Shown here one piece after another: positions 8,615 to 31,413 of a DNA stretch of 39,745 nt. Numbering within the stretch: the first letter of the stretch is position 1; every line of letters starts with the position of its first letter. Location of the stretch: the NCBI GenBank assembly GCA_025450135.1, contig JANWHZ010000024.1, positions 1 to 39,745 on the forward strand. Reading direction: 5' to 3'. The stretch comes from Candidatus Saccharimonadales bacterium (GTDB taxonomy: Bacteria > Patescibacteriota > Saccharimonadia > Saccharimonadales > UBA4665). A model generated the notes under the pieces. It was not told the DNA's origin, searched no databases, and saw nothing but the letters and a program-made list of their open reading frames with translations. The position numbers were made by a program, and so were the translations under genes.

Positions 8615-9364
8615 CTACCCCACTGGGTGGGCGTGCGTGCCGAGGTAGCGCACCACGTCATTCAAGAGTTCTTGAGCAATCGCTCGCACGCTGCGTTCCT
8701 TAAACGGGTCATATTGCCCTGTCATAATCAGGCGGTCGATTTCCGCAATCGTGCCTTCGCGCGTATCGTTTAGGATAAAGCGGAAATAGTCGGCTCGGAG
8801 CGCAGTAGAGAGCTCCCGCTCGGCGCTTTCCATACGGCGCTGCAACTCATCAAGTGACATGCCGCCGCGCAAATGTAATCGCTCCATCCAGATATCAAAA
8901 CTGAGGGGCACCATAAAGATGAAAGTGGTGTCCGGCTTCAGCTTATGGATCTCCTGCGCGCCGACAATTTCGATATCGGTCAAGGCAATCTTGCCAGCAC
9001 TCTCGGCAGCCACGAGTTGATCACGGGGGATGCCGGACACTTGTTGATTGTGAATCACCGCCGCGCCGACCAGGTCACCTTTGTTGAGCTCAGTGAGCAT
9101 CTCGTCTTCGCTCAGGAACCAATATTCACGGCCATGCTGTTCTAAAACGCCGTTATTGATACGAGGTTCCCGGGTGGTATCCGTAATAAGCGGGAAATAG
9201 TGACCGGTCTTGACGAGCTCACCGATAATAGTATCGCGGCCAGTGCCGGTTGGAGCAACGAACAGTAACAGCCGCAGCCCGCCCAAGGTCTTGCGGACAT
9301 CGTCCGACGGTCGGTAATGTTCGAGGACTTTGCGGAACTCTTCGGCTTGGATTAGGGAACTCAT
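8615..9364 (-). CDS. Guanylate kinase-like protein with divergent P-loop
   Basis: LLLFVAPTGTGRDTIIGELVKTGHYFPLITDTTREPRINNGVLEQHGREYWFLSEDEM; GMPK-type architecture but GTGRD instead of GxGK. Confidence 0.75.
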   Translation of the reverse strand: MSSLIQAEEFRKVLEHYRPSDDVRKTLGGLRLLLFVAPTGTGRDTIIGELVKTGHYFPLITDTTREPRINNGVLEQHGREYWFLSEDEMLTELNKGDLVGAAVIHNQQVSGIPRDQLVAAESAGKIALTDIEIVGAQEIHKLKPDTTFIFMVPLSFDIWMERLHLRGGMSLDELQRRMESAERELSTALRADYFRFILNDTREGTIAEIDRLIMTGQYDPFKERSVRAIAQELLNDVVRYLGTHAHPVG

Positions 9365-9408: not shown

Positions 9409-10161
9409 CTAGACCCGCGCTGGCTGATGCGCAGCAATACTGAGCTTCAGGCTATAGGCTAGTGCGTTCGCCACTCGGTGCGCTGCTTCCTTCTCGGCGG
9501 TTTCCGGCTGGCCCGATGCAATTCGGCCCACTTCTGCTACGGCGTCCTCGAGTACGTTGTTAATCACAAACGAGAAGTACGGCGTACGTAGTGCATGCTC
9601 AATTTCTTGTAGAGCGGTAGCCATGCGTTTTTCGAAATCTGCTTGATCCATCGCGGCGCCATACCGTTTGGCAAGCCGGCTCTGCCACACCTCATAGTCC
9701 GGCGGTAGAATAAACACGGCTTTGGTGTTATTAGGATCGATCTTCATGTAATCGGCCACGCCTTGCACTTCCAGATCGGTAACCGCAATTTTGTGGGCAT
9801 CGTGCGCCGCCTGTACTTCAGCCGCGCTCGTGCCGTAGACGTTGCTACCATAAATATTTGCTTCAACGTAGGCACCATTGTCAACCATCCGTTCGGATTC
9901 TTCAAGCGTAATGAAGTGGTACTCGACACCATCTTGCTCCATAACCCCGTCGTTTTCGCGCGGGCTACGCGTAGTATGCGACACCAAGGTATAGTACTTT
10001 CCAGTTTTGAGCAGCTCATTGGTAATGCTGTCTTTACCCGCACCTGATATGCCAGCCAGTAGTAAGATTGGCGTCGACCGGACAAGCGTAATCGTTGCAG
10101 CCGAGGGCTGATATTTCTCGAGCTTTTCTTTCAGGCGGGCGTGGACTTCAGAGCCTTCCAT
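9409..10161 (-). CDS. gmk: Guanylate kinase family protein
   Basis: ILLLAGISGAGKDSITNELLKTGKYYTLVSHTTRSPRENDGVMEQDGVEYHFIT. Start moved to ATG 10161; a TATACT box ends 6 nt upstream. Confidence 0.8.
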   Translation of the reverse strand: MEGSEVHARLKEKLEKYQPSAATITLVRSTPILLLAGISGAGKDSITNELLKTGKYYTLVSHTTRSPRENDGVMEQDGVEYHFITLEESERMVDNGAYVEANIYGSNVYGTSAAEVQAAHDAHKIAVTDLEVQGVADYMKIDPNNTKAVFILPPDYEVWQSRLAKRYGAAMDQADFEKRMATALQEIEHALRTPYFSFVINNVLEDAVAEVGRIASGQPETAEKEAAHRVANALAYSLKLSIAAHQPARV

Positions 10162-10202
10162 GAAAGCAGTATACAGAGCGTAAACGGAATGATGCAATGA
10201 GC

Positions 10203-15996: not shown

Positions 15997-18492
15997 TTAT
16001 GACTTTTGCAGGTCGATTGTACCTTCAGTTTCTAGCGCGTGAAACCCGGATGGCATAGCTCCTGCTGGCTTGTGTTTGCGGTTTCGTTTGCGCTTGCGCT
16101 TCGACTTTGCGTCCCCGCTCTGCTCGGTCGTTGTTAGCGGCATATCGAGTGCGGGCACCGGTGTTTCTTGCAGCGGCCGAGCGGGTGCCGAATGTGGCGA
16201 CGGCTGCAAGAGGTAGTGCTCATTCACGTAGTGCTCCACGTACTCGCGGCTCGAGGCATACTGCGCCCGCGAGCGTTCGATAATCGTCGCTGTTTGGTCG
16301 GCCGCCAGCGGTGGTAAATTCAAGGTAATTGCCGAGAAGGCCGGCACCTTTTCCCCTTCGATCGTCATGTTGATCACGAAGTGACGATTGTGCATATGCA
16401 CCAAGTCGTATTCGGTGAACTTTGGCTCAAAGTAGCGGGTGAGTACCCGCGCATCATCGGCTGACATACGAAAGGCAATCATCGAGCCAACGTTGCCGAA
16501 TACGGCGTCTTTGACCGCCATCGACATTTGGGCAATATACTGATTAGCAACGGTCAAACTCAGACCATATTTGCGCGCTTCGGAGAGGATCGTGGCAAAA
16601 CTGTCGGTGGCAAAGTTCTGAAACTCGTCAACGTACAGATAAAACGGCTGGCGCTGCTCGGCCGGAATGTCAGCCCGGCTCATAGCCCCCAGCTGGATCT
16701 TAGTTACCAGCAGTGACCCGAGTAACGACGCATTGTCTTCGCCGATCAACCCCCGGCTAAGATTAACAATCAGTATCTTATGCTCGTCCATGATCTGGCG
16801 GATACTAAAACTGCTTTTGGGCTGTCCAATGATGTTGCGCACCAAGGGGTTAGCAGTGAATGCGCCCACCTTATTCAGCACCGGCGCCACAGCCTCCGCT
16901 GCAAACCGGTCGTTCCAGCTCGTAAACTCTATCTGCCAGAAGGCCCGCACTACAGGGTCGCTGACGTGCTTTAGCACTTCAGCTCGGAACCGCTTGTCGG
17001 TCAGCATACGCGTGATATCAAGCATGGTGGCGTTAGGGTAATCAAGCAAAGCGAGCAAACTGTAACGTAAGATGTACTCTAGCCGGGGGCCCCAGCTTTC
17101 AAACATTCGCTTTAGCACCCCGATCAGCTCGCTGGCGGTATGCATCTTCAGCTTCGGGTCAAGCACCTCCATGGGGTTGAAAGCCACCGGGTAATCGGTA
17201 TCTGCCGGGTTGAAGTAAACAACGTCCCCCGCCCGCTCCGGCGGAATCCGTGCCAGGACGTGCTGCGCGTAATCGCCATGGGGATCAACCACTGCAAAGC
17301 CGTAGGGGCTGTAAATATCTGAGATGGTCAGGAGCTCCAGCGTACCCGACTTCCCTGTCCCCGTCTGCCCGATGATATACAAATGACGGCTGCGGTCGAT
17401 CCGCGGCAGGCCGAACATAGTATTATGGCCTCTGAAGTTTGTGTTGGCGACCGGGCTCAGATCCTGGCGGTACACAGCAGTCACGACCGGTAAGCTCGCT
17501 GGCGGCTCGGCTGTTTGGGCACTTGCCCAGAGAATAAATGGCGTCTCAACATTAGTATGCGGCAGGTGGTACAGTGTCGCCATCTCTTCAATATTCAGGA
17601 GCAGTCCCTTCGAGACAAAGCCGCGCGCTTGGTATGCGCCAATCGATGAGAGGTCAGTAGCTATCCGCTTCTGAGTGAAGCCATTTAAGTACGTCGTGTT
17701 GAACTGCTTATAGCTGGCAACGATCGATTGCATCTGCAATTGCGCTTGTGGCAGCGGCACATTACCGCGATAGACGATGCGCACTAACGCTTCAAAAGCC
17801 AGTTTCTGGCTCTTGGCTTCAGCTGCTGAGGCCCGTACTTGGTCATACTCTGCCGGTTTGGGAGCCGCATCTTTTACTTCTGGCGGTGCCCACAGCACCG
17901 ACCAGAGACCGGTCATTTTCGGTCCTCCACCACGCTTAATCCCGGCGATATACCGTTCGCTTCGTTTGTGCCAGTTATCTGGCGCTGGTCGGGTTACTAG
18001 TTGGATCCACGCTTCCTCGTCATCGCCGAATTTAGCCAGCGTTGCGGTAATTGCCGCCAGCGGATCGACTTCAAAGCTCTGAAACGTCTTAATGGGCAAC
18101 ATTTCCGTCCCGGAGAACTTCAGCTCTGTAGACAGCGTGGTCATGTAGTCAACGTCTACTTGTTCGGCATAGTCTGGCACCTCAGATATTTGCACACTTG
18201 GGTACTGCGCGTAGATCTGCTCTTCAACAAAGCTCTTCAGATATTGTGGCACCCAGACGTAAAAACCGATCCGGCGTTTCAGTACTGCTACCTCGAAGCT
18301 GATGCGCTCTCGTTTCACCGGTGAGAGCATCCTGTTGGTCGGGACTGTTAACAGCCCATACAAGCTGGCAAACATTTGTTCCGCAGCCAGTTCTTTCTTT
18401 TCGTTCGTACGCGGTACTTGCAATAACAGCACCACGCCGCTTTCGTCATGCGGGGGATTTGCGTTGGAGTCAGAGGTAACTTGTTCTGCCAT
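15997..18492 (-). CDS. VirD4/TraG/HerA-like P-loop ATPase (type IV secretion coupling protein-like)
   Basis: Walker A IIGQTGTGKSGTLELL, VVDPHGDYAQHVL, Walker B YLYVDEFQNFATDSFATILSEARKYGLSLTVANQY; polybasic C-terminal patch KSKRKRKRNRKHKP. Confidence 0.85.
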   Translation of the reverse strand: MAEQVTSDSNANPPHDESGVVLLLQVPRTNEKKELAAEQMFASLYGLLTVPTNRMLSPVKRERISFEVAVLKRRIGFYVWVPQYLKSFVEEQIYAQYPSVQISEVPDYAEQVDVDYMTTLSTELKFSGTEMLPIKTFQSFEVDPLAAITATLAKFGDDEEAWIQLVTRPAPDNWHKRSERYIAGIKRGGGPKMTGLWSVLWAPPEVKDAAPKPAEYDQVRASAAEAKSQKLAFEALVRIVYRGNVPLPQAQLQMQSIVASYKQFNTTYLNGFTQKRIATDLSSIGAYQARGFVSKGLLLNIEEMATLYHLPHTNVETPFILWASAQTAEPPASLPVVTAVYRQDLSPVANTNFRGHNTMFGLPRIDRSRHLYIIGQTGTGKSGTLELLTISDIYSPYGFAVVDPHGDYAQHVLARIPPERAGDVVYFNPADTDYPVAFNPMEVLDPKLKMHTASELIGVLKRMFESWGPRLEYILRYSLLALLDYPNATMLDITRMLTDKRFRAEVLKHVSDPVVRAFWQIEFTSWNDRFAAEAVAPVLNKVGAFTANPLVRNIIGQPKSSFSIRQIMDEHKILIVNLSRGLIGEDNASLLGSLLVTKIQLGAMSRADIPAEQRQPFYLYVDEFQNFATDSFATILSEARKYGLSLTVANQYIAQMSMAVKDAVFGNVGSMIAFRMSADDARVLTRYFEPKFTEYDLVHMHNRHFVINMTIEGEKVPAFSAITLNLPPLAADQTATIIERSRAQYASSREYVEHYVNEHYLLQPSPHSAPARPLQETPVPALDMPLTTTEQSGDAKSKRKRKRNRKHKPAGAMPSGFHALETEGTIDLQKS

Positions 18493-18704: not shown

Positions 18705-19643
18705 ATGGATCAGACAGGAGGTGGTGAACTCTCCTTCACGAGTGATATTGCTGCAGCAGACGAACACGGACGAACCGAAGAGTTGCCGGTTGGCGTGGAG
18801 GATCTGCACAGGACAGCCGGCCCTATTGCTGCCCTACTTGGCAGATTATCTATTGGTGGCGAGTGCGTCTCGGGTCTGCTTGCCGCTAGCCAAGCGCACG
18901 CCAAAGAGCTGCTCAATAGAGTCCGCCACGGCTCCATAGATGCTCCGAATGGCACCCCAGCGCTACAAGCGTTGGAGCAAGTAGAGGCCAACGTTTCTCG
19001 GGCCTTCCGTAAGAGTGGAGAGTTAGCCCGTAATGCGCCGCGGGCTATTGTCGACTACGCAGCAATCGGCGCCATGGCCATCCTTGCGCTGATGGGCGCT
19101 ACCGATTGGGACACCCAACGTGATCGGATTGAACGACAAACGCCCTCAGGGCAGCTGCCGTACCAGCGCCCCACATCCCAACATTGGGTCCGTCCACGGT
19201 CGGCATTAACTCTAGACGTTTACCAAGTACGTGGTGGTGGTACACAGCCGCCAGAGTGGGTGGAACGATTATTTTTGCAACAAGAGCCTGCGCAGACTCT
19301 ACCCGCTTCCCGGCGTGTTGTACCCCATGAGAAGGCTGCTGCCGCGGCGCCCATCGTTACGCAACAGCAGGCCGACCTCGCTACTCGATATCTTACAGAA
19401 TTCCTAAGCGCTGGGCCAAGCCCTTGGGATGTACCCGTGCCGAGCTTTGCTGCAATGGCACAACGCACCAATAAAACTGCTAACCTGCCCGCTCCCCAGG
19501 ACCACCGACGTATTCGGGTACGAGTTGGCTCAATGACCATGGCATTTTCCGGCCCGACTCAAGATATCTACGGCCGTATAGGCGCATGGCGAACAATGCA
19601 CCCGGACGCGGAAATCATCAGCGACGAACCATTGTTTGTCTAA
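18705..19643 (+). CDS. Island protein 1 (312 aa), unknown, Lys-poor
   Basis: ORF with GAGG upstream of ATG 18705; 4 Lys, 1 Cys by manual count; possible TM near AIGAMAILALMGA. Confidence 0.75.
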   Translation: MDQTGGGELSFTSDIAAADEHGRTEELPVGVEDLHRTAGPIAALLGRLSIGGECVSGLLAASQAHAKELLNRVRHGSIDAPNGTPALQALEQVEANVSRAFRKSGELARNAPRAIVDYAAIGAMAILALMGATDWDTQRDRIERQTPSGQLPYQRPTSQHWVRPRSALTLDVYQVRGGGTQPPEWVERLFLQQEPAQTLPASRRVVPHEKAAAAAPIVTQQQADLATRYLTEFLSAGPSPWDVPVPSFAAMAQRTNKTANLPAPQDHRRIRVRVGSMTMAFSGPTQDIYGRIGAWRTMHPDAEIISDEPLFV

Positions 19644-19751
19644 GAGAGTAAGCCTCTCGATGTTCTTTGAAAACATAAAAGGAATTGGCGCGCTGTCATA
19701 AGCTGCCTTCCACCTCTGCACCTAATTCCCCGTATTGCCTATGTAATCATA

Positions 19752-19790
19752 TTGACAACTGCGGAAGTTAATGTATAATATTACTACATT
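19752..19790 (+). promoter_or_regulatory. Promoter of island gene 2 (leaderless)
   Basis: TTGACA (19752-19757) N16 TATAAT (19774-19779), 11 nt to ATG 19791. Confidence 0.75.
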
Positions 19791-20297
19791 ATGGCCACAT
19801 TACCCGGCGCATATCTATCTAGCCCCGAGCGGCGGCGGCTGGGCACTAACCCTGACTTGGTCAGGGCGATTGCCGCTATGGGCGATCGCGCTGCGAAGGG
19901 GGGGGCTAGGTATATTCCTGGTCAACTTTCACAGTATCGTCTGGCGCATGGCGAACAAGATGATGGGTTTCAATATCTAAGAGGCGCAGTGGTTGATGCT
20001 GCACGCGAGCATCGTGCTGCAACGGTTCTTGTAATGCCGCAGCATTCGACTTTACGCGAGCGCAGGAGAGCCCAGGACGCTGATCAGCTTAGGCATCAGC
20101 AAGCAGCATTTGCAGCACAAGTAATCCTAGAAGAGCTTCTCCAAGCAAGCGCAGCAGCCACAGCGTCTTTTGGCGCTGATCGTGACGACACTCCGGCAGC
20201 ACATGAAGCAGCTTGGCAAGCTGGTTTTGATGTCTACCAGAGGCATCATCCAGAGAGCCCACGCTACGATTTAGGTGCTACTGACGGCCCGCGATAA
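19791..20297 (+). CDS. Island protein 2 (168 aa), unknown, Lys-poor
   Basis: ORF immediately downstream of a consensus promoter; 1 Lys in 168 aa. Confidence 0.7.
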   Translation: MATLPGAYLSSPERRRLGTNPDLVRAIAAMGDRAAKGGARYIPGQLSQYRLAHGEQDDGFQYLRGAVVDAAREHRAATVLVMPQHSTLRERRRAQDADQLRHQQAAFAAQVILEELLQASAAATASFGADRDDTPAAHEAAWQAGFDVYQRHHPESPRYDLGATDGPR

Positions 20298-20383
20298 TAG
20301 ACACTGTTAACGAAGTGTTAGACCCACATCGTAGCTTGGCGAGATAGTAGTTGGGTCTGACTTATAAACGTATTAAGACGCTT

Positions 20384-21385
20384 GTGTCCAATGTAGCATT
20401 CTCGTAGCCAGGAATACCTTATAGGTATTCCACGGGCGTACGCATGCGGAGCATGCTATGCGGCCGGAAGAAGTTGTAATCCAAGCAGTCCTCAACGAGG
20501 AATGCTTGTAATTCTGCTTTCTGGTAGCTGTTGGTCGTCAGCTTCTTGTAGCTATCCTAGTCGACGCCGTGAGATCGCTCAATCTGACCATTGGGATGCG
20601 GGCTTCGGGGTGATATCCGGCCGTGATGGATATTGTTAGCGGTGAGCCACCGTTGTACGGCGGTCAAAGTGTCTGGCTTGGTTTGTGGCAACTGGTCGTA
20701 GACGAACTTCATGCCGTTGTCGGTCTGGATACAACGGAAGGAGAAAGCTGGGGCAAAGAAACGGATAGCATGCTCCAGGAATCCCACAGTGTAAACGGGG
20801 TTCACTCCCGGATATAGTCGCTTGTATTTAATCCTGGTAGCACAGTCAACAATGTCGTACTGGTACGCAGCATACTTCCAGTGTTTGACGTCCAGTTGGC
20901 CAACTTCATACGGTTGGTACTGGTGCTACTGAGCCGACGCTGGGTGTATGGCCTACGCGTTTTGGCACCGTAAGTTTTGCCCGGCGGAGAACACTACCAA
21001 CTGCATGCCGCGAGACGGCAATGCCGTAATCCCGGGCCAGTACCACGGCCAGCTTCGCTTCACCGTAGCCGAGACCTAGTCGCAACTGGACAATGAGGCT
21101 GGTCGTTTCATCACTCAAATCGGCTCTGTGCGATTTGGCGTTTTCGGCATGTCGTGCAAGCTGGTAAGTTTCTTGTTGTTGGCAAGCCAACGACTGTGCG
21201 AGTAGTAGTATTCACTCCTGGCAATGCTGTAGTGTTTGCAAGCTGCGGTAACACTGTCGAGTTCCTTGGCAGCCCGAAACCCAGCAAAACGGATACGAGC
21301 TCCATATACCTGAAGTTGTTTTCCGGTCATGACTCTTGTCCTCACTTACACTCCTTTCTAATCTGGTAAAAGTGTCCAAGATGTA
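20384..21385. mobile_element. IS remnant bounded by similar end motifs
   Basis: GTGTCCAATGTA (20384-20395) and GTGTCCAAGATGTA (21372-21385) flank the transposase pseudogene, in direct rather than inverted orientation. Boundaries tentative. Confidence 0.45.
20415..21345 (-). pseudogene. Degenerate DDE transposase (IS3/IS481-like, rve integrase core)
   Basis: Fragments in successive frames: MTGKQLQVYGARIRFAGFRAAKELDSV..; LSDETTSLIVQLRLGLGYGEAKLAVVLARDYGIAVSRHAVGSVLRRAKL; IQTDNGMKFVYDQLP...HHGRISPRSPHPNGQIERSHGVD*; after an in-frame stop DSYKKLTT...LVEDCLDYNFFRPHSMLRMRTPVEYL. Confidence 0.88.
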
Positions 21386-21415
21386 CGGGATCGAATAATA
21401 TTCTATGCTAGTAAG

Positions 21416-21444
21416 TTGACTAATAATCTTATTTAGTTTAAAAT
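21416..21444 (+). promoter_or_regulatory. Promoter of island gene 3
   Basis: TTGACT (21416-21421) N17 TAAAAT (21439-21444). Confidence 0.6.
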
Positions 21445-21495
21445 AAAGGTTTTAGTGTTCACTGATACTCAGTAAGCAACGGAGAACAAAGTAAG

Positions 21496-23463
21496 ATGAG
21501 CAGAGGTGAAGGGTTACGTCCTTCTGGTGTAGTAGATGATGCATACTCCTCTTGGGAGTATGCATTGCCGTTGTCTGAAACCCTAGAACGCGGCGTAGGC
21601 TATGATGGTCCACGGACAGACAACGATACATTGGGCGCTAGACGAGCTGGCCGCACGGCCGTCTTGCATTATAAACGTGACGAAGCGGCAGTGCCTCCTG
21701 TCGCCTACATGGATAACCCTGGTGAGTTCGAAGAGGCTGCGCCTGAAAGAAGTGATGAACAAGGCCAAGTTCGGTTAGAAGGGCCTTATGGTACCTGGCA
21801 AGATTTGAGACAACAGCATGATCCCTATGAAGGGCTCACGCCTTGGCAGCGCGGCGCAGAAGATCGACAAAGTGCTTGGGGCGAGGTCCTCCAAGTCGCT
21901 AGCCGTGTTCTCCCTGAACGTATCCGACCTCACATTCGCTCTCGTTGGGACGCTACGCCTGGGATGGCCTGGGAAAGTGCGGTTTTCCTAACAGGAACGT
22001 ACGTAAAACATTTGTTTGATGTGGTTACATTCAGGCAACGTGTACCTCGTGAGGCTGCATGCCAAGAAGCCCCGCAGGCTCGCCGTGATCGTCCGCCAGT
22101 AGAACGTCGGCGCACAAGCGATGTGGTGAGCGCTGTGGTGGGTACGGCTGGTGATGTTGCCGCAGGATTCGCAGGTGTTGCCCTTAGCGCGGCTGACCGA
22201 GCAATCTCGGGCCTTGAATACGTCGTGTACAGCGCCGGACGACACCTTCGTAGAACAGGTAATCATATTGGTGAGACACGCGTCTGGCATGCCGCCGAGC
22301 AGGTCGCTGACACAGCCACCGGATACGCACTTTATGGTGTACTTGTGGGGGGCGCGGCTACGCTGCTCTTCCTCAGTAATCCGTGGTATTATATCGGTCC
22401 TGAAGGCCGTGCAGAGAGGCGCCGTGTACATGCTAGCTTGGATAATCTACGTTTCGGCTCAAGCGTTGCGGCTAGAGGTGAGGAATCTGCCCACGATGCT
22501 GCCCATACTACCTCGCTCCATGAATCTGACCGGCAGCTTGCAGCGCTTATAGATCGCCAACGCCGTCACGTAGAAATAGATAGTTCGTGGAGAAGTGACG
22601 ATTCCGTACCCACGCCTCAATCCTTATTTTCACAGACAGCATGGCCATTAGTCCGTGCCCACCTGGGTCGTATTAACCTTGGCGAAGCAGATAGCCCAGT
22701 ATTGGTCGCTACGCGAGAAACTATCGCGGCAGTTATACGGCAAATCTCAGATGAGCCTCAGGCATTTGCTGCAACTACTCACGTATATGCACTAGACATC
22801 TCCAAGAGCCTAGCTGCAATGTTCCCTGAGACAGAGTCGGGCTGTAAAGCGCGTGGCCTCTCACTGAAAGACGTGGTAGCCACTGTCCTGGAACGCTTAG
22901 GCGTGGGTGATACTGATATAGATCGTAGGCTAGATGTGCTTGCCCTCATGGCAGATCATCTCAGCCAATTTACATTACCTGACATGCCACCAGCCAGTAA
23001 CCCTCCAGTTGCAGGCAGTCCCGCGACTGCTATGGCACCTCGCTCAGCGCCCGAACATACGATAGTCAACGACGATTTCATTGTTCCGTTCATGAGAATT
23101 CTTGCCTATGACCAGCAAAGGCCAGCCAGTGCTAACGATGACTTGTGGCAGGGTGCGCAGCGGCATGCGGCAATCATACGTGAGGATCTTGTGGCAATGG
23201 GCTTCGAAACGATATTGACGGAGCTGGATGAGGTAACCAACGTTAACGACGCTATCGCAACTGCATTAGTTACTGAGGGCCTGGTCAGCAAAAAAGCTGT
23301 CGATGACGGTGACGTTTCAAGCATATTTTATGCAGGGACGTATAACACTGGCACTATTGACACGATAGCCGCGTGCCTACGAGCGTATCATTATTCGCGC
23401 GTATTCCTGAGCCGGTCTGTAAACGGTGGTTCCTCAGCCGAAGCAATTTTGCCTCAGGCCTAG
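21496..23463 (+). CDS. Island protein 3 (655 aa), unknown, Lys-poor, central predicted TM segment
   Basis: ORF with GGAG upstream; 7 Lys in 655 aa; hydrophobic TGYALYGVLVGGAATLLFLSNPWYYIG. Confidence 0.8.
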   Translation: MSRGEGLRPSGVVDDAYSSWEYALPLSETLERGVGYDGPRTDNDTLGARRAGRTAVLHYKRDEAAVPPVAYMDNPGEFEEAAPERSDEQGQVRLEGPYGTWQDLRQQHDPYEGLTPWQRGAEDRQSAWGEVLQVASRVLPERIRPHIRSRWDATPGMAWESAVFLTGTYVKHLFDVVTFRQRVPREAACQEAPQARRDRPPVERRRTSDVVSAVVGTAGDVAAGFAGVALSAADRAISGLEYVVYSAGRHLRRTGNHIGETRVWHAAEQVADTATGYALYGVLVGGAATLLFLSNPWYYIGPEGRAERRRVHASLDNLRFGSSVAARGEESAHDAAHTTSLHESDRQLAALIDRQRRHVEIDSSWRSDDSVPTPQSLFSQTAWPLVRAHLGRINLGEADSPVLVATRETIAAVIRQISDEPQAFAATTHVYALDISKSLAAMFPETESGCKARGLSLKDVVATVLERLGVGDTDIDRRLDVLALMADHLSQFTLPDMPPASNPPVAGSPATAMAPRSAPEHTIVNDDFIVPFMRILAYDQQRPASANDDLWQGAQRHAAIIREDLVAMGFETILTELDEVTNVNDAIATALVTEGLVSKKAVDDGDVSSIFYAGTYNTGTIDTIAACLRAYHYSRVFLSRSVNGGSSAEAILPQA

Positions 23464-23581
23464 CTGTATCTGTAATATAAACATGAGCAGTAACATAATC
23501 ATCTTGACTTTTTGGGCAGTTGCTGCTAGTGTATATGTATTGTCATTATCATAAGCGGAAATTATTAAAGAAGAGAATAAT

Positions 23582-25780
23582 ATGTCACAAGCAGCTCCTA
23601 ATCCACGTGATTTTCCTCAAGACGCTCGACAACAAACGAGAGAATGGGATGCGATTGCTGGCTTTGACGCGGAATTGGTTGATGCTGATCGTATTCCTGA
23701 CGCTGATACGTTTCCGCTATTGCAAGCTTACCGTGGAACTGCTGACCATGTAGGTCAACCTGGCCACAACGGACAACGTGATGGATTTGAACGTCGTGGT
23801 TCTGCAGATGGGCCAACCGGTCCACAACTTGCAGGCGGCGCTAGAAATGCTGATGGGGGCCAGCGTGCACCACATCCTAGACACCCATTTGCACAAAGAA
23901 CACCTCTGGGTGACCGCATTGGTCATAGAGCAGATGTCCGCGGTGACGATGAAGCTCCTGACCATGAGACCCCAGCCGTGCGTCCACAACACGGGCAACA
24001 TAGGGGCCAGGGCTCTGAACCACGGAGAGTGGGAACCGACACAAGCGAATACCCTGCCTTGCCAAGGCCTCCTCGACCCGCGCGTCGTCCAACTAGTAGA
24101 GGCAGTGATGGTGGTCGTGTCACCCCAGCCCAAGCTGAAACAGGACAACGAGCCCAACAAGTTAGAACAGGTGGCGAACAAAGTCCACCATGGGAAGATG
24201 ATGAAGAAGATCAAAGAATTGATCAACGTCCTACAGCCCCGCTACCTATAGCGCGCGCGCCACAACCTCGTGTAGACAGATTGATTAGACTAAGGCATGG
24301 TGCAGGTGCAAACCTAGCAAGAGTTGGCGTTGGGTTAGCACATGGACCAGAGGCTGGTAGGCAGGCACATGATCAGGTTTTGGCGCGCGGTGAAGCTGCA
24401 CGTCGGGAGGCTGATGCCCACGTGGGTGAACACTGGGCTAACATTAGGCGCTCTGCGGCTGCACGTTGGGCTGGAATGATGGCGCTAGCAGGCGGATGGA
24501 ATACTGGGAGCGGAAGATACAGGACTGAACGCCAAAGGCATGCTCATCTGAACCATATAGATATGGTCAACCGGATGGGTGGGAACTATGCTTATCCTTT
24601 CCCGGATACCCGCCCCGGCGGTGAACATGATCCTCATAGGCAATCTGATCAAGCTACAGACCCTAGGGATCCGATTATACTTAGCAGCCCCGTGTCTCTA
24701 CCTCATGAACACAGGGATAGAATACGCGCGGGACTTGCCAATGGAACTATCTTGCATAGGATCGGCGGTGATGGCGGTCATGAGTTCTACCAACGTATGC
24801 GATTAGGTGAAGCAGATGAACCGCACCCTCAGCAAGGGCGCAGCGAGGGCGCTGAAGGTGGACGTCCTGAAGGTCAACCTGATGACACTGCGCAGCGTCT
24901 CCTAGCTGCACCATCGGCCCGCGCTCAGAGTGAAGCTGCTGCACGGGATGACCGTCCTGAATGGATGCCCCAAGATGGAGGGAGACAATTCTACCTAGGT
25001 CGAGCCAGGTTAGAACTTAATGATCTCGTCAGACAATTGGGCCAGCCCACACGTGCTCAAGCCGAACAATGGATGGAGCAGCGAGCACGACAAATGTATG
25101 ATAATGATCGTGCAAGCGGTTATCCACGTTTGCGAGAACAGTACGAAAGAATGTTGGAAGCCCAGCGACAAGATCCTGCGTATCAACGTCGGCTGGCAGT
25201 CGAACGTAATGCAGCTCAGCGACATGAAGCAGCTCAGCGTGAAGCAGCATTAGCGAGCAGCACAGACCCTGATGTGATTGAGGCTAGGCGATTGTTTGCA
25301 CGAGATAAGCATCTCATCCCTGATGATCAGCAGCCTGGATGGGTTGAACGAACAAGAGCTTCCCTAGCATCACAACGTGAACTCGATCGTGAAGCTGCTG
25401 AAAGAGCACGACGAGCTCGCGAGGAGCAACAAGCTAGAGATTTAGCATATGAACGTGCCTACGTGCTGCGGCGGGCTAATGGCATTGCCGATATGTTTGG
25501 TGCACAGATGGGCGCAAAACGTGCTACATTCCCTCCTGAAACCGAACGTGAGACTATGCTAGCTGCACTGGATGCCGCTGAAGAATTTGTCGCAGATGCG
25601 GAAGCTAATAACAGGCGCTTGTGGCAAGCACGTCACTTAGATCAGCTTAGGCAGCAAATAGTACGCGCAGCAGCTACTACGATAGTTCGGGAAGGTATTA
25701 CCCCAACTGAAAGTAGATTGCTAGCGGGAGCCTTTGCTCGCGAACTATTCGGTATGCAACTGGATATAGGCACTCGATAA
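23582..25780 (+). CDS. Island protein 4 (732 aa), unknown, extremely Arg-rich and nearly Lys-free
   Basis: Long ORF preceded by AAAGAAGAG; 2 Lys, about 105 Arg, no Cys seen; low-complexity N-terminal half, helical charged C-terminal half. Confidence 0.8.
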   Translation: MSQAAPNPRDFPQDARQQTREWDAIAGFDAELVDADRIPDADTFPLLQAYRGTADHVGQPGHNGQRDGFERRGSADGPTGPQLAGGARNADGGQRAPHPRHPFAQRTPLGDRIGHRADVRGDDEAPDHETPAVRPQHGQHRGQGSEPRRVGTDTSEYPALPRPPRPARRPTSRGSDGGRVTPAQAETGQRAQQVRTGGEQSPPWEDDEEDQRIDQRPTAPLPIARAPQPRVDRLIRLRHGAGANLARVGVGLAHGPEAGRQAHDQVLARGEAARREADAHVGEHWANIRRSAAARWAGMMALAGGWNTGSGRYRTERQRHAHLNHIDMVNRMGGNYAYPFPDTRPGGEHDPHRQSDQATDPRDPIILSSPVSLPHEHRDRIRAGLANGTILHRIGGDGGHEFYQRMRLGEADEPHPQQGRSEGAEGGRPEGQPDDTAQRLLAAPSARAQSEAAARDDRPEWMPQDGGRQFYLGRARLELNDLVRQLGQPTRAQAEQWMEQRARQMYDNDRASGYPRLREQYERMLEAQRQDPAYQRRLAVERNAAQRHEAAQREAALASSTDPDVIEARRLFARDKHLIPDDQQPGWVERTRASLASQRELDREAAERARRAREEQQARDLAYERAYVLRRANGIADMFGAQMGAKRATFPPETERETMLAALDAAEEFVADAEANNRRLWQARHLDQLRQQIVRAAATTIVREGITPTESRLLAGAFARELFGMQLDIGTR

Positions 25781-25794
25781 TATATTTAATAATC

Positions 25795-25831
25795 AAGTAG
25801 AGCACCATAAAAAATGGTGCTCTACTTTTTT
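25795..25831 (+). terminator. Rho-independent terminator after island gene 4
   Basis: AAGTAGAGCACCAT-aaaaa-ATGGTGCTCTACTT perfect 14-bp stem followed by T-tract. Confidence 0.93.
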
Positions 25832-25906
25832 GTGATGCAGAAAAATATGTGCACACGTATTTTTTTCGGTTCACCGTAGGTTGCAAAAGATTACAATGCA
25901 ACCACA

Positions 25907-25944
25907 TTGACTATCAGGCTTATTAGTAGTATAATATTGTCATT
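25907..25944 (+). promoter_or_regulatory. Promoter of island gene 5 (leaderless)
   Basis: TTGACT (25907-25912) N17 TATAAT (25930-25935), 9 nt to ATG 25945. Confidence 0.78.
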
Positions 25945-28035
25945 ATGGCTGCAGTGCAAGAACAAGTACTCGATGATTTACCAGAATTTCACGTCACAGA
26001 TGCTGGGCTACAAAGCCTTAGCCAAGCATTGGAACGAGTACATGCGACGGCTCAGCTCCGCCTTATGCCAGACACAGATCGAGCCGGCGCACAAGCAAGC
26101 GACGATCGTGGAGCCGCTGATGATCCCCTACCACATGATGAACATGAGGCACCAGCTGAACGTCGCACATTGGCAGCGCGTGGTTTAGGTGCAGCTGCAG
26201 CCAGTGACGTAGCACCACAAGCAAGTCGCACCCCAAGGCAACGTGAACATACCCTCGCGGATGCAGCTGATCCAAGTAGACGCAGGCGAACCCGTCGCGC
26301 TAGTACAAGCGGCGCTGATGAACATCGCGATCGCGATGTTTCTGATGGATCTGGCGCCAGCGCAGTCGCCGCTCTGCCTCGTACCACTAGAGGCTTTGCT
26401 GCGGTATCTCCTACAGCACCTGCTCACGCGAGTGGCGACATAGCCGAAGCACGTAGCTCAGATACACCTACGCTGCCACCAAGCGCTGGGTTATCACCTG
26501 CACACTTTGCACATATGGGAGACTTGTTCCTCACAGATGAAGAAGCTCGAGCCGTAGCTGATAGCCATAATAGAGCACACGGAATCTCACATAACGCTGA
26601 CAACCCCAGCGCCCCCCATTTCGCCCAGTTAATTGAAGCGGGAGCCAAGATTACTCTTGATACAGACCCCGAAATTCTTCACCAAGCATTGACATTGGTT
26701 GCGCTTAATCATCGTGACCCTGCAAGAGCATTACCCAACATTATTCGAGCTGACTTGCCAGACGATCAAGTAGCACACTTGATCGGCATAGCTTGCACAG
26801 AAGCAGCGAGTTTGCGCTCTAATGCTGTATTTGCGCTGCAAGGTGACCTCACGTCGATATCTCAATCAATCCAGCCCATAAGCCCAGACGAGTTGGGGCG
26901 AGCTCATGCTATGATCGGCCGCATCTCTGATAGAATCGTACTTGATCAACGCGCCCTTGCAGATTTCAGGTCGCGCATGCCAGGTGAACTTTACGAACGT
27001 ATTGCAATCGCAACGCGTATTGATCCTACAATAGCAGCAGCAAGGGCGCTTGAGTCGGCTACAACCGAATATCTCATGTGGCAGTGGCAACGAATTCAGG
27101 CTTCTCAACAAGCACCCAGCATTGCTACAGCTTCTTTAGTTGAATCACAAGCTACAGACAGACCCCAAGCAAGGAGACCTTTCCCAGCGCAATTGGGCGA
27201 GCGAAAGAGATTAGATCAAGAACAGCGGCATGCTCAAGAATTGGTAAGAACTCTTATACTTAGGCTACAGCGGTCACAGCATGAAGTAAGGGATGCTGAC
27301 GTTCCCCGACGTCAAAGACAAGCAGCATTGCGGGGTGCGGCACTTCAGCAACTCCGCCTGAATGATGCAGAGTGGGGTGATATTTCAGGCAGCGAAGAAA
27401 TGTGGCTCATTCACCGAACATTAGTTAACAGATTTGGAACTACTGAAGGTTACGATTATGAGGCGGTAGACAGTGCAGCGCAGGCACGTCTCGGCGTTAG
27501 TGTAGATGAATTAATTGCTGCGAGTATTAAAAGGACTCTCGGTTTACACGGTGACGTAGGCGCCATTATGACTGTTCTTAATGATTTCACCTTAAACGGC
27601 CTAGGTTACACTCCCGCCACGGCACATCCAAGGGATACTGGTATGAGACACCAGGCACGTATGTTGGCAGGTGGTGCGAGACGCAGGATGTTTGAGATGA
27701 TGCCGAGAAGCGAAGCCGTACGCCTTGAACAAGCTCGCCTTCAGCCACGTAGGCTTGGTGCACAACCACCTGCAGTGAATTTGGTAAGTCTGCACCAACG
27801 CACACTGCAGCAAGCTCAACAACGACGGTCTGAAGTACTAGGCGGCGCCAGCGAAACACCTCGTCGAGTAGCAGTGGCGGCAAGGCGTGTTAGACCTAGC
27901 TTAGGTAGCAACCCGGGTGACACAGGAGGCGTAAATGGTGGACGGCCTGCAAGTAGGAGCGCTGCCGCGTCTGAGACCCGCACAGCAAACGAGGCACTAG
28001 GACAAGATGATGATCCAGACGGGTGGATAAAGTAG
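25945..28035 (+). CDS. Island protein 5 (696 aa), unknown, Lys-poor
   Basis: ORF immediately downstream of a consensus promoter; 4 Lys and 1 Cys in 696 aa. Confidence 0.8.
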   Translation: MAAVQEQVLDDLPEFHVTDAGLQSLSQALERVHATAQLRLMPDTDRAGAQASDDRGAADDPLPHDEHEAPAERRTLAARGLGAAAASDVAPQASRTPRQREHTLADAADPSRRRRTRRASTSGADEHRDRDVSDGSGASAVAALPRTTRGFAAVSPTAPAHASGDIAEARSSDTPTLPPSAGLSPAHFAHMGDLFLTDEEARAVADSHNRAHGISHNADNPSAPHFAQLIEAGAKITLDTDPEILHQALTLVALNHRDPARALPNIIRADLPDDQVAHLIGIACTEAASLRSNAVFALQGDLTSISQSIQPISPDELGRAHAMIGRISDRIVLDQRALADFRSRMPGELYERIAIATRIDPTIAAARALESATTEYLMWQWQRIQASQQAPSIATASLVESQATDRPQARRPFPAQLGERKRLDQEQRHAQELVRTLILRLQRSQHEVRDADVPRRQRQAALRGAALQQLRLNDAEWGDISGSEEMWLIHRTLVNRFGTTEGYDYEAVDSAAQARLGVSVDELIAASIKRTLGLHGDVGAIMTVLNDFTLNGLGYTPATAHPRDTGMRHQARMLAGGARRRMFEMMPRSEAVRLEQARLQPRRLGAQPPAVNLVSLHQRTLQQAQQRRSEVLGGASETPRRVAVAARRVRPSLGSNPGDTGGVNGGRPASRSAAASETRTANEALGQDDDPDGWIK

Positions 28036-28068
28036 CTGCTACGGTCTTAGCGACAGCATTACTTTGTA

Positions 28069-28096
28069 TTGACTTTTCTGGTTTTTGTATTACAAT
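28069..28096 (+). promoter_or_regulatory. Promoter of island gene 6
   Basis: TTGACT (28069-28074) N16 TACAAT (28091-28096). Confidence 0.65.
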
Positions 28097-28132
28097 TTAG
28101 CGACACGTTTTAACCTGTCAGTGGGAAGAGAT

Positions 28133-29506
28133 ATGACGAGAGATTTAGGCGCAGGACGGTCTGGCCCAGCATCCCCAGAACTTACAGTTGAGCCCACTCA
28201 TGCTGATTTTGATACGGCCGAAGTAGATGACCTTACAGCCGAAATAAGCTTGACGAATATCGAAGGAGCGGCGGTTGTTCACGCGCTGGTAAATGGTGCA
28301 CTTGAACGACTGGAACAAGAGGCCGCTAAACCTGATGACATACCAGTTACCGGCAGAATGACCACCGCACAGGCTAAGCATCTTCTAAAAACATTACGGA
28401 GCCAATTTCCTTCAAGAGCCGAGCGAGAAGAAGTAGTTCTAGATGATCAGCAGTTAGATGGTATACCGAGTTTACCAGGTTTTAGACCGTTTGCGCGGGT
28501 CATACAAACCGAGACTATTGTGGCACTTGACGGGCGTTACGGTGAAGGATTCACGCGACAACAACTTGCTGAGCTTGTTAGACGCCGCGACCAGCGAGCT
28601 ATAACAGCCGGAACCGCGGGCCCATCTATAGTTGCGGCTACTCTAGAGGCTCCCGGAGCGATGTGTGTCGGCGATGAACAGGACCAATGGGCAGACACGC
28701 CTGATAATGAGTTTGGCTATAGGTGGCGAGACTTCCAACTGTATGTTGGTGACATCCCGTTTAATATCTGGTATAGCTTACTACATGGAGCAGCAGCTCG
28801 GTTCTTGCAGCAGCTCCGGAGCCAAGGTCAAACCGACCTGCCAGACGTGGCGCCTATCCACCCAAATGATCTTAGAGATCATTTGGCAGCAGCCAAAGCT
28901 GAAGGCAGGCCTCTTGTCATGAGGACTAGTACTAGGCTTCCAATCCTTACGAGCTGGGATACTGATCTGGACGTACGTGCGATAAATCGTACATTTCACC
29001 AGTTAGGCTACCCTGGAGACCGAAACTTTTTATACGATGCCTTGTACCCGGCACTTGAAGCAGCACCGCTTCGGCGTGGCAGGCTATGTGAACGAAGACC
29101 TATTCCAGCGCCTCATGTACCGGAGGGACGAGACCTCTGGGTTAGTATGGCTCAGGATACTTCTACTGTACTACGGAGGCATGAAGGGCATTTGGTGCTG
29201 TCTGAGAATGGTCCTACCGACACTACTGGCCTGGCTCGTTCTACAACAGGAGGTGCACCAGCCACAGCCAGTCGAGTTCCTCTAGAACCGGAATATGATG
29301 ACTATGACGAACCGGGGGGTGAAGAAGCTGAAGCTGAACCAATACTAAAACCAAGCGGTTATACGCTCGCCCGTATACATGCAATGAACGTTGCAATGGA
29401 CGAGACAGAGGGGCTACACGGCATGTGGGAATGGACAGGAATGTATTTTGTACAGCGCCCTTTGCTTGCAGGACTCTTCGTACTTCAGCGGGTCGTCAGG
29501 CGATAA
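28133..29506 (+). CDS. Island protein 6 (457 aa), unknown, Lys-poor
   Basis: SD GGGAAGAG before ATG 28133 (MTRDLGAGRSGPASPE); the track start at 28085 overlaps the promoter. 5 Lys. Confidence 0.78.
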   Translation: MTRDLGAGRSGPASPELTVEPTHADFDTAEVDDLTAEISLTNIEGAAVVHALVNGALERLEQEAAKPDDIPVTGRMTTAQAKHLLKTLRSQFPSRAEREEVVLDDQQLDGIPSLPGFRPFARVIQTETIVALDGRYGEGFTRQQLAELVRRRDQRAITAGTAGPSIVAATLEAPGAMCVGDEQDQWADTPDNEFGYRWRDFQLYVGDIPFNIWYSLLHGAAARFLQQLRSQGQTDLPDVAPIHPNDLRDHLAAAKAEGRPLVMRTSTRLPILTSWDTDLDVRAINRTFHQLGYPGDRNFLYDALYPALEAAPLRRGRLCERRPIPAPHVPEGRDLWVSMAQDTSTVLRRHEGHLVLSENGPTDTTGLARSTTGGAPATASRVPLEPEYDDYDEPGGEEAEAEPILKPSGYTLARIHAMNVAMDETEGLHGMWEWTGMYFVQRPLLAGLFVLQRVVRR

Positions 29507-29544: not shown

Positions 29545-31413
29545 CTAGTACAGAGCGGCAGCTTTAGGCATGGTCGCGCCTTTGAACAGTAACTCTACTT
29601 CTTCGCCTTCGACGGTCTCTTTTTCGAGCAAGACTTCCTTGAGTGCTTTTAGGTGCGACATATTGGCTTTGATAACCGCACGAGCACGATTCGCGGCTTC
29701 AGTAATGAGCGCCTCGACTTCATCATCAATAACCTTGGCTGTTTCGTCGGAGTATTCCCGCTCATGCACCATACGCTCCAGCATCATCCCTTCGTCGACA
29801 TGAAACACCTGGTCGCGAAGCTTCTTACCCATACCTTGGTTGACCACCATATCTCGCGCAATCTCAGCCGCCTTCTGGAGGTCATTACCACCACCAGTAG
29901 TGATGCGATCAGCACCGTATACTAACTCTTCGGCAACACGGCCGCCGAGAGCGCGGGCCAACACGTCTTTGTATTCAACGAGCGACGTATAGACACGGTC
30001 TTCGGGCGGAAGGAACCAGGTCACACCGCCAGTGCCACCGCGTGGAATGATGGTAACTTTATGTACTGGATCGCTGTCAGGCAGCACGTGGCCGACAATC
30101 GCATGGCCGGCTTCGTGAAAGGCAGTCAGTTCTTTTTCCTTCTCATTCATAACGCGGCTCTTACGCTCCGGGCCAATAGCGACGCGCTCGAACGCATCTG
30201 TCACGTCGCTCTGACTGATCTGGCTATGGCCATTTCTGGCGGCAATGATCGCTGACTCATTAGCGATATTAGCCAGGTCCGCACCTGAGCTGCCGGCTGT
30301 TTTGGCAGCTAACGAGTCAAGGTCGACAGTCTTAGCCAGTGGCTTCTTCACAAAGTGTACTTTGAGGATTGCTTCACGGTCCTTGCGTTCCGGCAAGCCG
30401 ATGTCGACACGACGGTCGAAGCGGCCGGGTCGCAAGAGTGCCGGGTCGAGTACGTCGGCGCGGTTCGTCGCAGCCAGCACGATAACATTCTGCCCCTGCT
30501 CGAAGCCATCCATCTCTACCAGAATCTGGTTCAGCGTCTGCTCACGCTCATCATGCCCGCCCCCCATACCGGAACCGCGGCGGCGCCCAACAGCGTCTAT
30601 TTCATCAATAAAGATAATACACGGCGAGTTCTTCTTGGCTTTCGCAAACAGGTCACGAACGCGTGAGGCACCGACACCGACAAACATTTCGACGAACTCT
30701 GAACCGGAAATGCTGAAAAACGGGACATTGGCTTCGCCAGCCACGGCGCGGGCAAGCAGTGTCTTGCCAGTACCAGGAGGGCCGACTAGCAGCACTCCTT
30801 TCGGAATGCGAGCCCCCATCGCGGCAAACTTCTTGGGGTACTTTAGAAATTCAACGACTTCCTGCAGGTCCTGCTTGGCTTCGCCTGAGCCGGCAATGTC
30901 GCTGAAGGTCGCCTTCTTGTGCTCGTTGCCATACAGCCGGGCTCGGCTCTTGCCGAAGCTGAGCGCTTGGTTGCCCTGCCCTTGGGCGCTTCTGAGCATG
31001 ATGTACATCAAGCCGACAAAGAGCACCGGTATCACAATGTAGCTGCCGATCGTCAGCCAGGTGTCATAGCCCGATGACGTCGACTTGGCTTGAATCGCTA
31101 CTTTTGAGTAATTGAAGCCTTCGTCTTTTAGTGTGGCATTCGGCTCTGTAAATGTCTTCAGCGTGGCCGTTGGCTCACCTTTCTTGGTAATGTCGAGCTG
31201 ATTGCCGTCGACCACGATCTTGCTGTAATCTCCGGCGTTGGCCTCTTGCACTGCCTGGGTCAGCGGAATTTCTTTCAGGCTGGTCGATTGGTTGGTGACG
31301 CCGAGTAGGACAAGTCCGATCAGCGCCACGAGGGTGATAAAGACGATGTTCTTGAGCATGCGCGACCGGTTGCTGCCAGGACCGCTACGCTTAACGGGAA
31401 ATTTATTATCCAT
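29545..31413 (-). CDS. ftsH: ATP-dependent zinc metalloprotease FtsH
   Basis: [26 protein letters not shown] region, [10 protein letters not shown] zinc site. Confidence 0.98.

Follow-up and report, generated by a model that had tools for sequence, protein, structure and literature searches.

Why should six adjacent genes of a bacterium encode proteins that are nearly devoid of lysine? Cultured Saccharibacteria live attached to other bacteria, their hosts are Actinobacteria, and in Actinobacteria the ligation of Pup to lysine residues directs proteins to the proteasome. The original prediction for this locus had assumed a saccharibacterial origin and proposed that a low lysine content helps proteins delivered into the host to escape pupylation. 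The window, a stretch of 39,745 nucleotides, is a whole contig (C24) of a genome of 829 kb in 58 contigs (87% complete, 0.12% contaminated). The assumed lineage was borne out. The VirD4-like gene of the window shares 66-80% identity with orthologues in many other genomes of the family, and the named matches in this range were mostly Candidatus Saccharibacteria.

Gene organization of the island

All six ORFs run on the + strand, opposite to the flanking ftsH and virD4 genes between which they are inserted (Table 1), and none was assigned to a family. Eight relatives have ftsH next to virD4, spaced by 35-260 bp, whereas 11,053 bp separate them here. We found no convincing direct or inverted repeats at the island boundaries. 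The only phage or mobility genes within the island were remnants of a decayed IS481-type transposase, which lie in the gap at 20.4-21.4 kb (ORFs 20557-20805 and 20906-21190), and no PHROGs family was detected. In genome G028 (L106, 2553-5537) the same virD4-ftsH gap holds a different gene, which encodes an Arg-poor (0.6%) protein of 994 aa. The site thus tolerates insertions, and the virD4-ftsH gap may be an insertion hotspot. Elsewhere in the window, tandem guanylate-kinase-domain genes (8615-9364 and 9409-10197) adjoin an IMP dehydrogenase gene.

Table 1. Features of the island, its borders and the shared promoter box (positions refer to the window unless another locus is named)
Feature	Position	Strand	Description
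Left border, VirD4/TraG-like coupling ATPase	15997..18492	-	Normal Lys; orthologues with up to 80% identity in many relatives
ORF1	18705..19643	+	312 aa, 4 Lys, one hydrophobic segment, no family
ORF2 promoter (predicted)	19752..19779	+	Perfect sigma-70-type, TTGACA-16-TATAAT, then ATT; 11 nt before ATG
ORF2	19791..20297	+	168 aa, 1 Lys, no family
Decayed IS481-type transposase fragments	20420..21330 (outer limits approximate)	-	In the ORF2-ORF3 gap
ORF3	21496..23463	+	655 aa, 7 Lys, glycine-rich hydrophobic stretches
ORF4	23582..25780	+	732 aa, 2 Lys, 105 Arg, GC3 0.34, no family
Terminator-like hairpin after ORF4	25795..25827	+	14 bp, then T run
ORF5 promoter-like site	25907..25935	+	TTGACT-17-TATAAT, then ATT; 9 nt before ATG
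ORF5	25945..28035	+	696 aa, 4 Lys, 78 Arg
ORF6	28133..29506	+	457 aa from ATG 28133, 5 Lys
Right border, FtsH	29545..31413	-	Adjacent to virD4 in eight relatives
Box sites, TATAATAT	Upstream of L015:8868, L039:3948, L053:1627, L059:6754, window:19791, window:25945		8-34 nt before start codon

The near-perfect promoters of ORF2 and ORF5 and the hairpin following ORF4 suggest that at least some of the genes are separately transcribed. The ORF2 promoter is so close to the ATG that the leader would be very short or absent. For ORF6 an alternative start (TTG 28085) would give a protein of 473 aa, and the ATG was favoured because of a -10-like TACAAT at 28091-28096.

We consider it highly improbable that the ORFs are spurious or decayed, or that the locus is an assembly artefact. 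The island proteins have no homologues, two AlphaFold models calculated without alignment were of very low confidence (pLDDT 35 and 38) and the ORF caller was simple. Nevertheless, six consecutive frames remain open, the longest over 732 codons, and the gaps contain predicted promoters and a predicted terminator, while core genes of the same lineage on both sides and the low contamination of the bin argue against an artefact of assembly.

Lysine content and base composition

Recounting confirmed the lysine numbers of the original prediction exactly for all six proteins (23 of 3,020 residues, 0.76%) and also those of its normal-lysine controls (PilB 29/565, VirD4-like ATPase 39/831). Arginine is abundant as stated (8.7-14.3%, about 10.9% overall) and cysteine is nearly absent (0-3 per ORF). 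The proteins had also been called giant, but their actual sizes are 168-732 aa. The longest lysine-free runs of ORF1 to ORF6 comprise 106, 132, 265, 575, 234 and 168 aa, and the run in ORF4 is the longest in the genome. When the published definitions of a lysine desert (PMC10665810) were applied, ORF3, ORF4, ORF5 and ORF6 reached a lysine-free run of at least 150 aa, while ORF1 and ORF2 fell short. A run of at least 50% of the protein length was found in ORF2 and ORF4 (79% each), with only 34-40% in ORF1, ORF3, ORF5 and ORF6.

Among all residues, lysine is the most strongly shifted one (log2 -2.84), followed by cysteine (-1.52), whereas the shifts of N, I, Y, F and V are -0.9 or weaker. The K/(K+R) ratio of the island is 0.065. 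An Arg-rich protein that binds nucleic acids or other polyanions had been named as an alternative. The arginine content and disorder-like stretches in ORF4 and ORF5 are in line with it, but Asp+Glu (13.5%) equals or exceeds Arg+Lys (11.7%), so that the chains are not polycations, and binding of nucleic acids needs no absence of lysine. The balanced charge weakened this alternative, and we regard it as very unlikely.

The lack of lysine had been claimed not to result from base composition, and the codon counts support this. In the island there were 23 AAR, 101 AGR and 61 AAY codons, compared with 9,822 AAR and 1,755 AGR codons in the remaining proteome. This corresponds to AAR/AGR ratios of 0.23 and 5.6, which means that AAR is 24-fold rarer relative to its one-transition neighbours AGR than in the rest of the genome. 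Against asparagine codons AAR is 3-fold low (AAR/AAY 0.38 vs 1.11 elsewhere), and its observed/expected ratio is 0.29 vs 1.23 elsewhere. Third positions of the island are AT-rich (GC3 0.34-0.53) and the intergenic GC is 0.37; both should favour AAA. Taken together, these data exclude base composition as the cause.

A related scenario is that the genes came from a high-GC source, such as an actinobacterial host, its phages or its plasmids, and that the amino acids keep the trace of this origin while synonymous sites have adapted to an AT-leaning genome. Several properties fit. Ala, Arg and Pro are high and Ile, Asn, Phe and Tyr are low, with F, Y, M, I, N and K together making up about 12% in the island vs 23% in the proteome. 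GC1 and GC2 are high at low GC3, the locus is an orphan one of the insertion type with IS debris, and Actinobacteria as well as mycobacteriophages are rich in lysine deserts (PMC10665810). However, lysine is reduced by a further factor of about four compared with N, I, F or Y. Synonymous sites have relaxed (AGR makes up 30% of the Arg codons in the island, 14% elsewhere), and yet the simplest step, from AGR to AAR, has rarely been taken. Moreover, no phage, plasmid or viral-contig match was obtained among the ORFs searched in each collection, and two low-lysine proteins of the same genome, described below, have relatives in the same family or order that carry more lysine. We thus consider a high-GC origin doubtful.

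A genome-wide class of low-lysine proteins

To place the island in its genome, all 655 ORFs of at least 150 aa, as called by a simple longest-ORF procedure, were ranked by lysine content (median 4.2%, 5th percentile 1.0%). The six island ORFs were within about the lowest 50. Most other ORFs at this end of the list encode Arg-poor surface, pilin or membrane proteins, and less than 1.5% lysine together with more than 6% arginine was found in only 25 of the 655. Lysine contents below 1% are not common in this genome, as they were seen in 16 of 400 soluble ORFs with a length of 150 aa or more, and the island accounts for three of the 16 (soluble and membrane proteins were split by a hydropathy threshold). 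In the relative G014, which has the same GC (50.2%), 0 of 366 soluble proteins had less than 1% lysine (Fisher p=3e-5), and a sample of about 434 kb from further relatives contained 1 such protein in 147, so that this proteome comparison rests mainly on one relative (G014, 800 kb). A homologue in G014 was present for 8 of 44 low-lysine (<2%) soluble proteins and for 204 of 356 others (p=7e-7); a few core genes count as lacking a homologue because the 800 kb of G014 did not include them.

Within a class that spans the genome, the six island ORFs form the densest group, but the property is not confined to them, since about 25-30 further soluble ORFs with low lysine and normal to high arginine are located elsewhere. 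The class comprises about 30 proteins, which are signal-less and mostly orphan. A second cluster on contig C41 (L042:1268-6323) encodes orphan proteins of 131, 426, 96 and 508 aa with 0, 7, 0 and 2 lysines. A single paralogous family as the source was ruled out, the members not forming one family, and HrcA was taken out of the class, being lysine-poor in other Saccharibacteria as well. Members with a recognisable fold are ThiF/E1-like, Ser/Thr-kinase-like, aminotransferase, GNAT and CofD-like proteins. The ThiF/E1 protein contains 1.2-2.6% lysine here vs 3.8-7.6% in relatives, one of which has 53-54% GC, and the aminotransferase contains 1.0% vs 2.5% and 5.0%; it retains few lysines, among them the one that aligns with the PLP lysine. 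These differences suggest that lysine was lost within this lineage. Members of the CofD-like, kinase-like and aminotransferase types may simply be ordinary enzymes of the cytosol.

Some details of these members may be added. The N-terminal half of the ThiF/E1-like protein (L028:767-2962) is a separate gene in two relatives, and it is low in lysine only here; the copies L143 and L144 of two relatives have in-frame stops. The eukaryote-like Ser/Thr kinase at L020:4038-5354 (1.6% lysine) resembles PD-T4-6 defence kinases and is unique in the family.

Lysine-to-arginine drift in the proteome

For 285 orthologue pairs we counted 668 positions with arginine in this genome and lysine in G014 and 329 positions of the reverse type (z 10.7), whereas other A-to-G second-position exchanges were near balance. 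When the changes were polarised in 34 genes with outgroups, 38 K-to-R replacements fell on this lineage vs 8 on G014. This drift is directional and lysine-specific, and it proceeds in core orthologues at a GC equal to that of G014.

The drift is what would be expected from a lysine economy of the whole proteome, in which a lineage short of lysine or Lys-tRNA replaces lysine wherever it is unconstrained, most completely in orphans. However, mismatched or indel positions of ordinary soluble proteins, where constraint is weak, still hold about 4-6% lysine, with K/(K+R) of 0.40-0.52; at the mismatched positions of conserved soluble proteins taken by themselves the values are 5.0-6.0% and 0.44-0.52. 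N-anchored or predicted secreted proteins have a K/(K+R) of 0.50 and show no specific lysine depletion relative to arginine. The drift is also far too small to produce proteins with 0.3-1% lysine. From the ratios of about 0.45 at free sites, 0.50 in secreted proteins and 0.065 in the island it follows that the class needs a cause of its own beyond drift, and we therefore rate a general lysine economy as unlikely. Weakly constrained sites do not approach zero lysine, and genome-wide drift alone was judged insufficient; alkaline or protease pressure on surface proteins was considered and judged insufficient as well. In summary, the depletion is lysine-specific, does not stem from base composition and is not explained by the mild drift.

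Possible place of action of the low-lysine proteins

From this we infer that the proteins act, or stay for a critical period, where lysine side chains are a liability. Our preferred reading is that the six genes form an accessory island in a saccharibacterial chromosome, that they belong to the class of about 30 low-lysine proteins and that they are kept lysine-poor because they act on a host; we put its probability at slightly below 40%. By analogy, the place of action would most plausibly be the cytoplasm of a pupylating actinobacterial host. The low-lysine proteins would be made from strong promoters of their own, an export apparatus, possibly including the neighbouring VirD4-type ATPase, could pass them to the host (this route is our guess), and there they might act on host processes, with arginine in place of lysine maintaining charge and solubility. 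The narrower idea, that lysine depletion marks a host-directed effector repertoire of about 30 accessory proteins delivered into a pupylating actinobacterium, appears possible but rather doubtful.

Lysine deserts are most common in Actinobacteria with proteasomes, they are 4- to 22-fold commoner in mycobacteriophages than in Escherichia or Bacillus phages, and escape from pupylation has been proposed as the reason (iScience 2023, PMC10665810). The term GC content is absent from the main text of that paper, so that a confounding effect of the high actinobacterial GC may have gone uncontrolled in that analysis. The island proteins share with the published examples long lysine-free stretches, several of them falling within the published definitions. 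In contrast, they occur in a Saccharibacterium with AT-leaning codon use, in whose genome (87% complete) Pup_ligase (PF03136) was not detected, and they are concentrated in orphan accessory genes, whereas the published deserts are spread over a high-GC proteome. The mycobacteriophage parallel (PMC10665810) makes the predicted escape from pupylation reasonable, but the drift and the high-GC-like composition complicate this idea, and both delivery and a Pup-positive host are presumed.

A chains of AB toxins are lysine-poor according to the review PMC6471375 and to Hazes and Read 1997, as cited in PMC10665810. The parallel would be one of working principle, in that proteins surviving in a foreign cytoplasm lose lysines. 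Unlike these toxins, the island proteins have no B subunit or signal peptide, their proposed target is bacterial and not eukaryotic, and no catalytic toxin domain was found in Pfam, NCBIfam, PHROGs or PADLOC, so that they do not belong to this group.

In agreement with the statement that no domain family is recognisable in them, none of the six ORFs matched a family in these four libraries, and no known cytoplasmic family was recognised either. No relative was found for ORF3 in 93 further family genomes, for ORF5 in 98 other genomes, phages or viral contigs, or for ORF6, which alone was searched against GTDB contigs, in these or in phages. ORF4 had no phage match. Altogether, viral contigs (ORF3, ORF5), phages (ORF4-6) and plasmids (ORF3) gave no match; ORF1 and ORF2 were searched against the family libraries and the sequences of this analysis. 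This absence of relatives counts against the host-directed reading, as do the Lys-to-Arg drift in core proteins that should never leave the cell and the overall composition, which fits a high-GC origin.

In Patescibacteria, VirD4-type genes are usually unlinked from the secretion locus, and according to a published survey epibiotic growth of one species did not require a distant virD4-type gene (PMC12102498). As in these systems, a VirD4-type coupling ATPase is present and borders the island, and further copies are located elsewhere in the genome. The island genes differ in that they match no known component family and no substrate signal was recognised. By eye, the island C-termini had no type IV effector signal in common, and no signal, translocation motif or host was identified for the island proteins. 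A search with a VirB4 model gave no clear VirB4 in the 87%-complete genome; this and the nonessential virD4-type gene count against the host-directed reading.

Because the candidates are orphans, homology offers no handle on the proteins that Patescibacteria deliver into their hosts. A specific and strong signal in composition, limited to one lineage, would provide a testable candidate list. If the host-directed reading is true, composition alone could serve to find the effectors of epibiotic bacteria, and the lysine-desert idea would be carried over from phages to a cellular organism that parasitises bacteria. If instead the rival reading holds, what the data show is an unusual substitution of arginine for lysine across the whole proteome of one lineage, with GC unchanged.

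A promoter box shared by part of the class

The sequence TATAATAT was located close upstream of 6 of 33 low-lysine genes vs 3 of 287 others (p=5e-5, a post hoc value for a pattern noticed before testing). Judged from these sites (Table 1), part of the low-lysine class may be under a common TTGAC...TATAATAT promoter, and several genes with the box could be leaderless. The second cluster, L042, adjoins a tsaD-like gene, and one of its members has a TATAATATT promoter 14 nt before the ATG.
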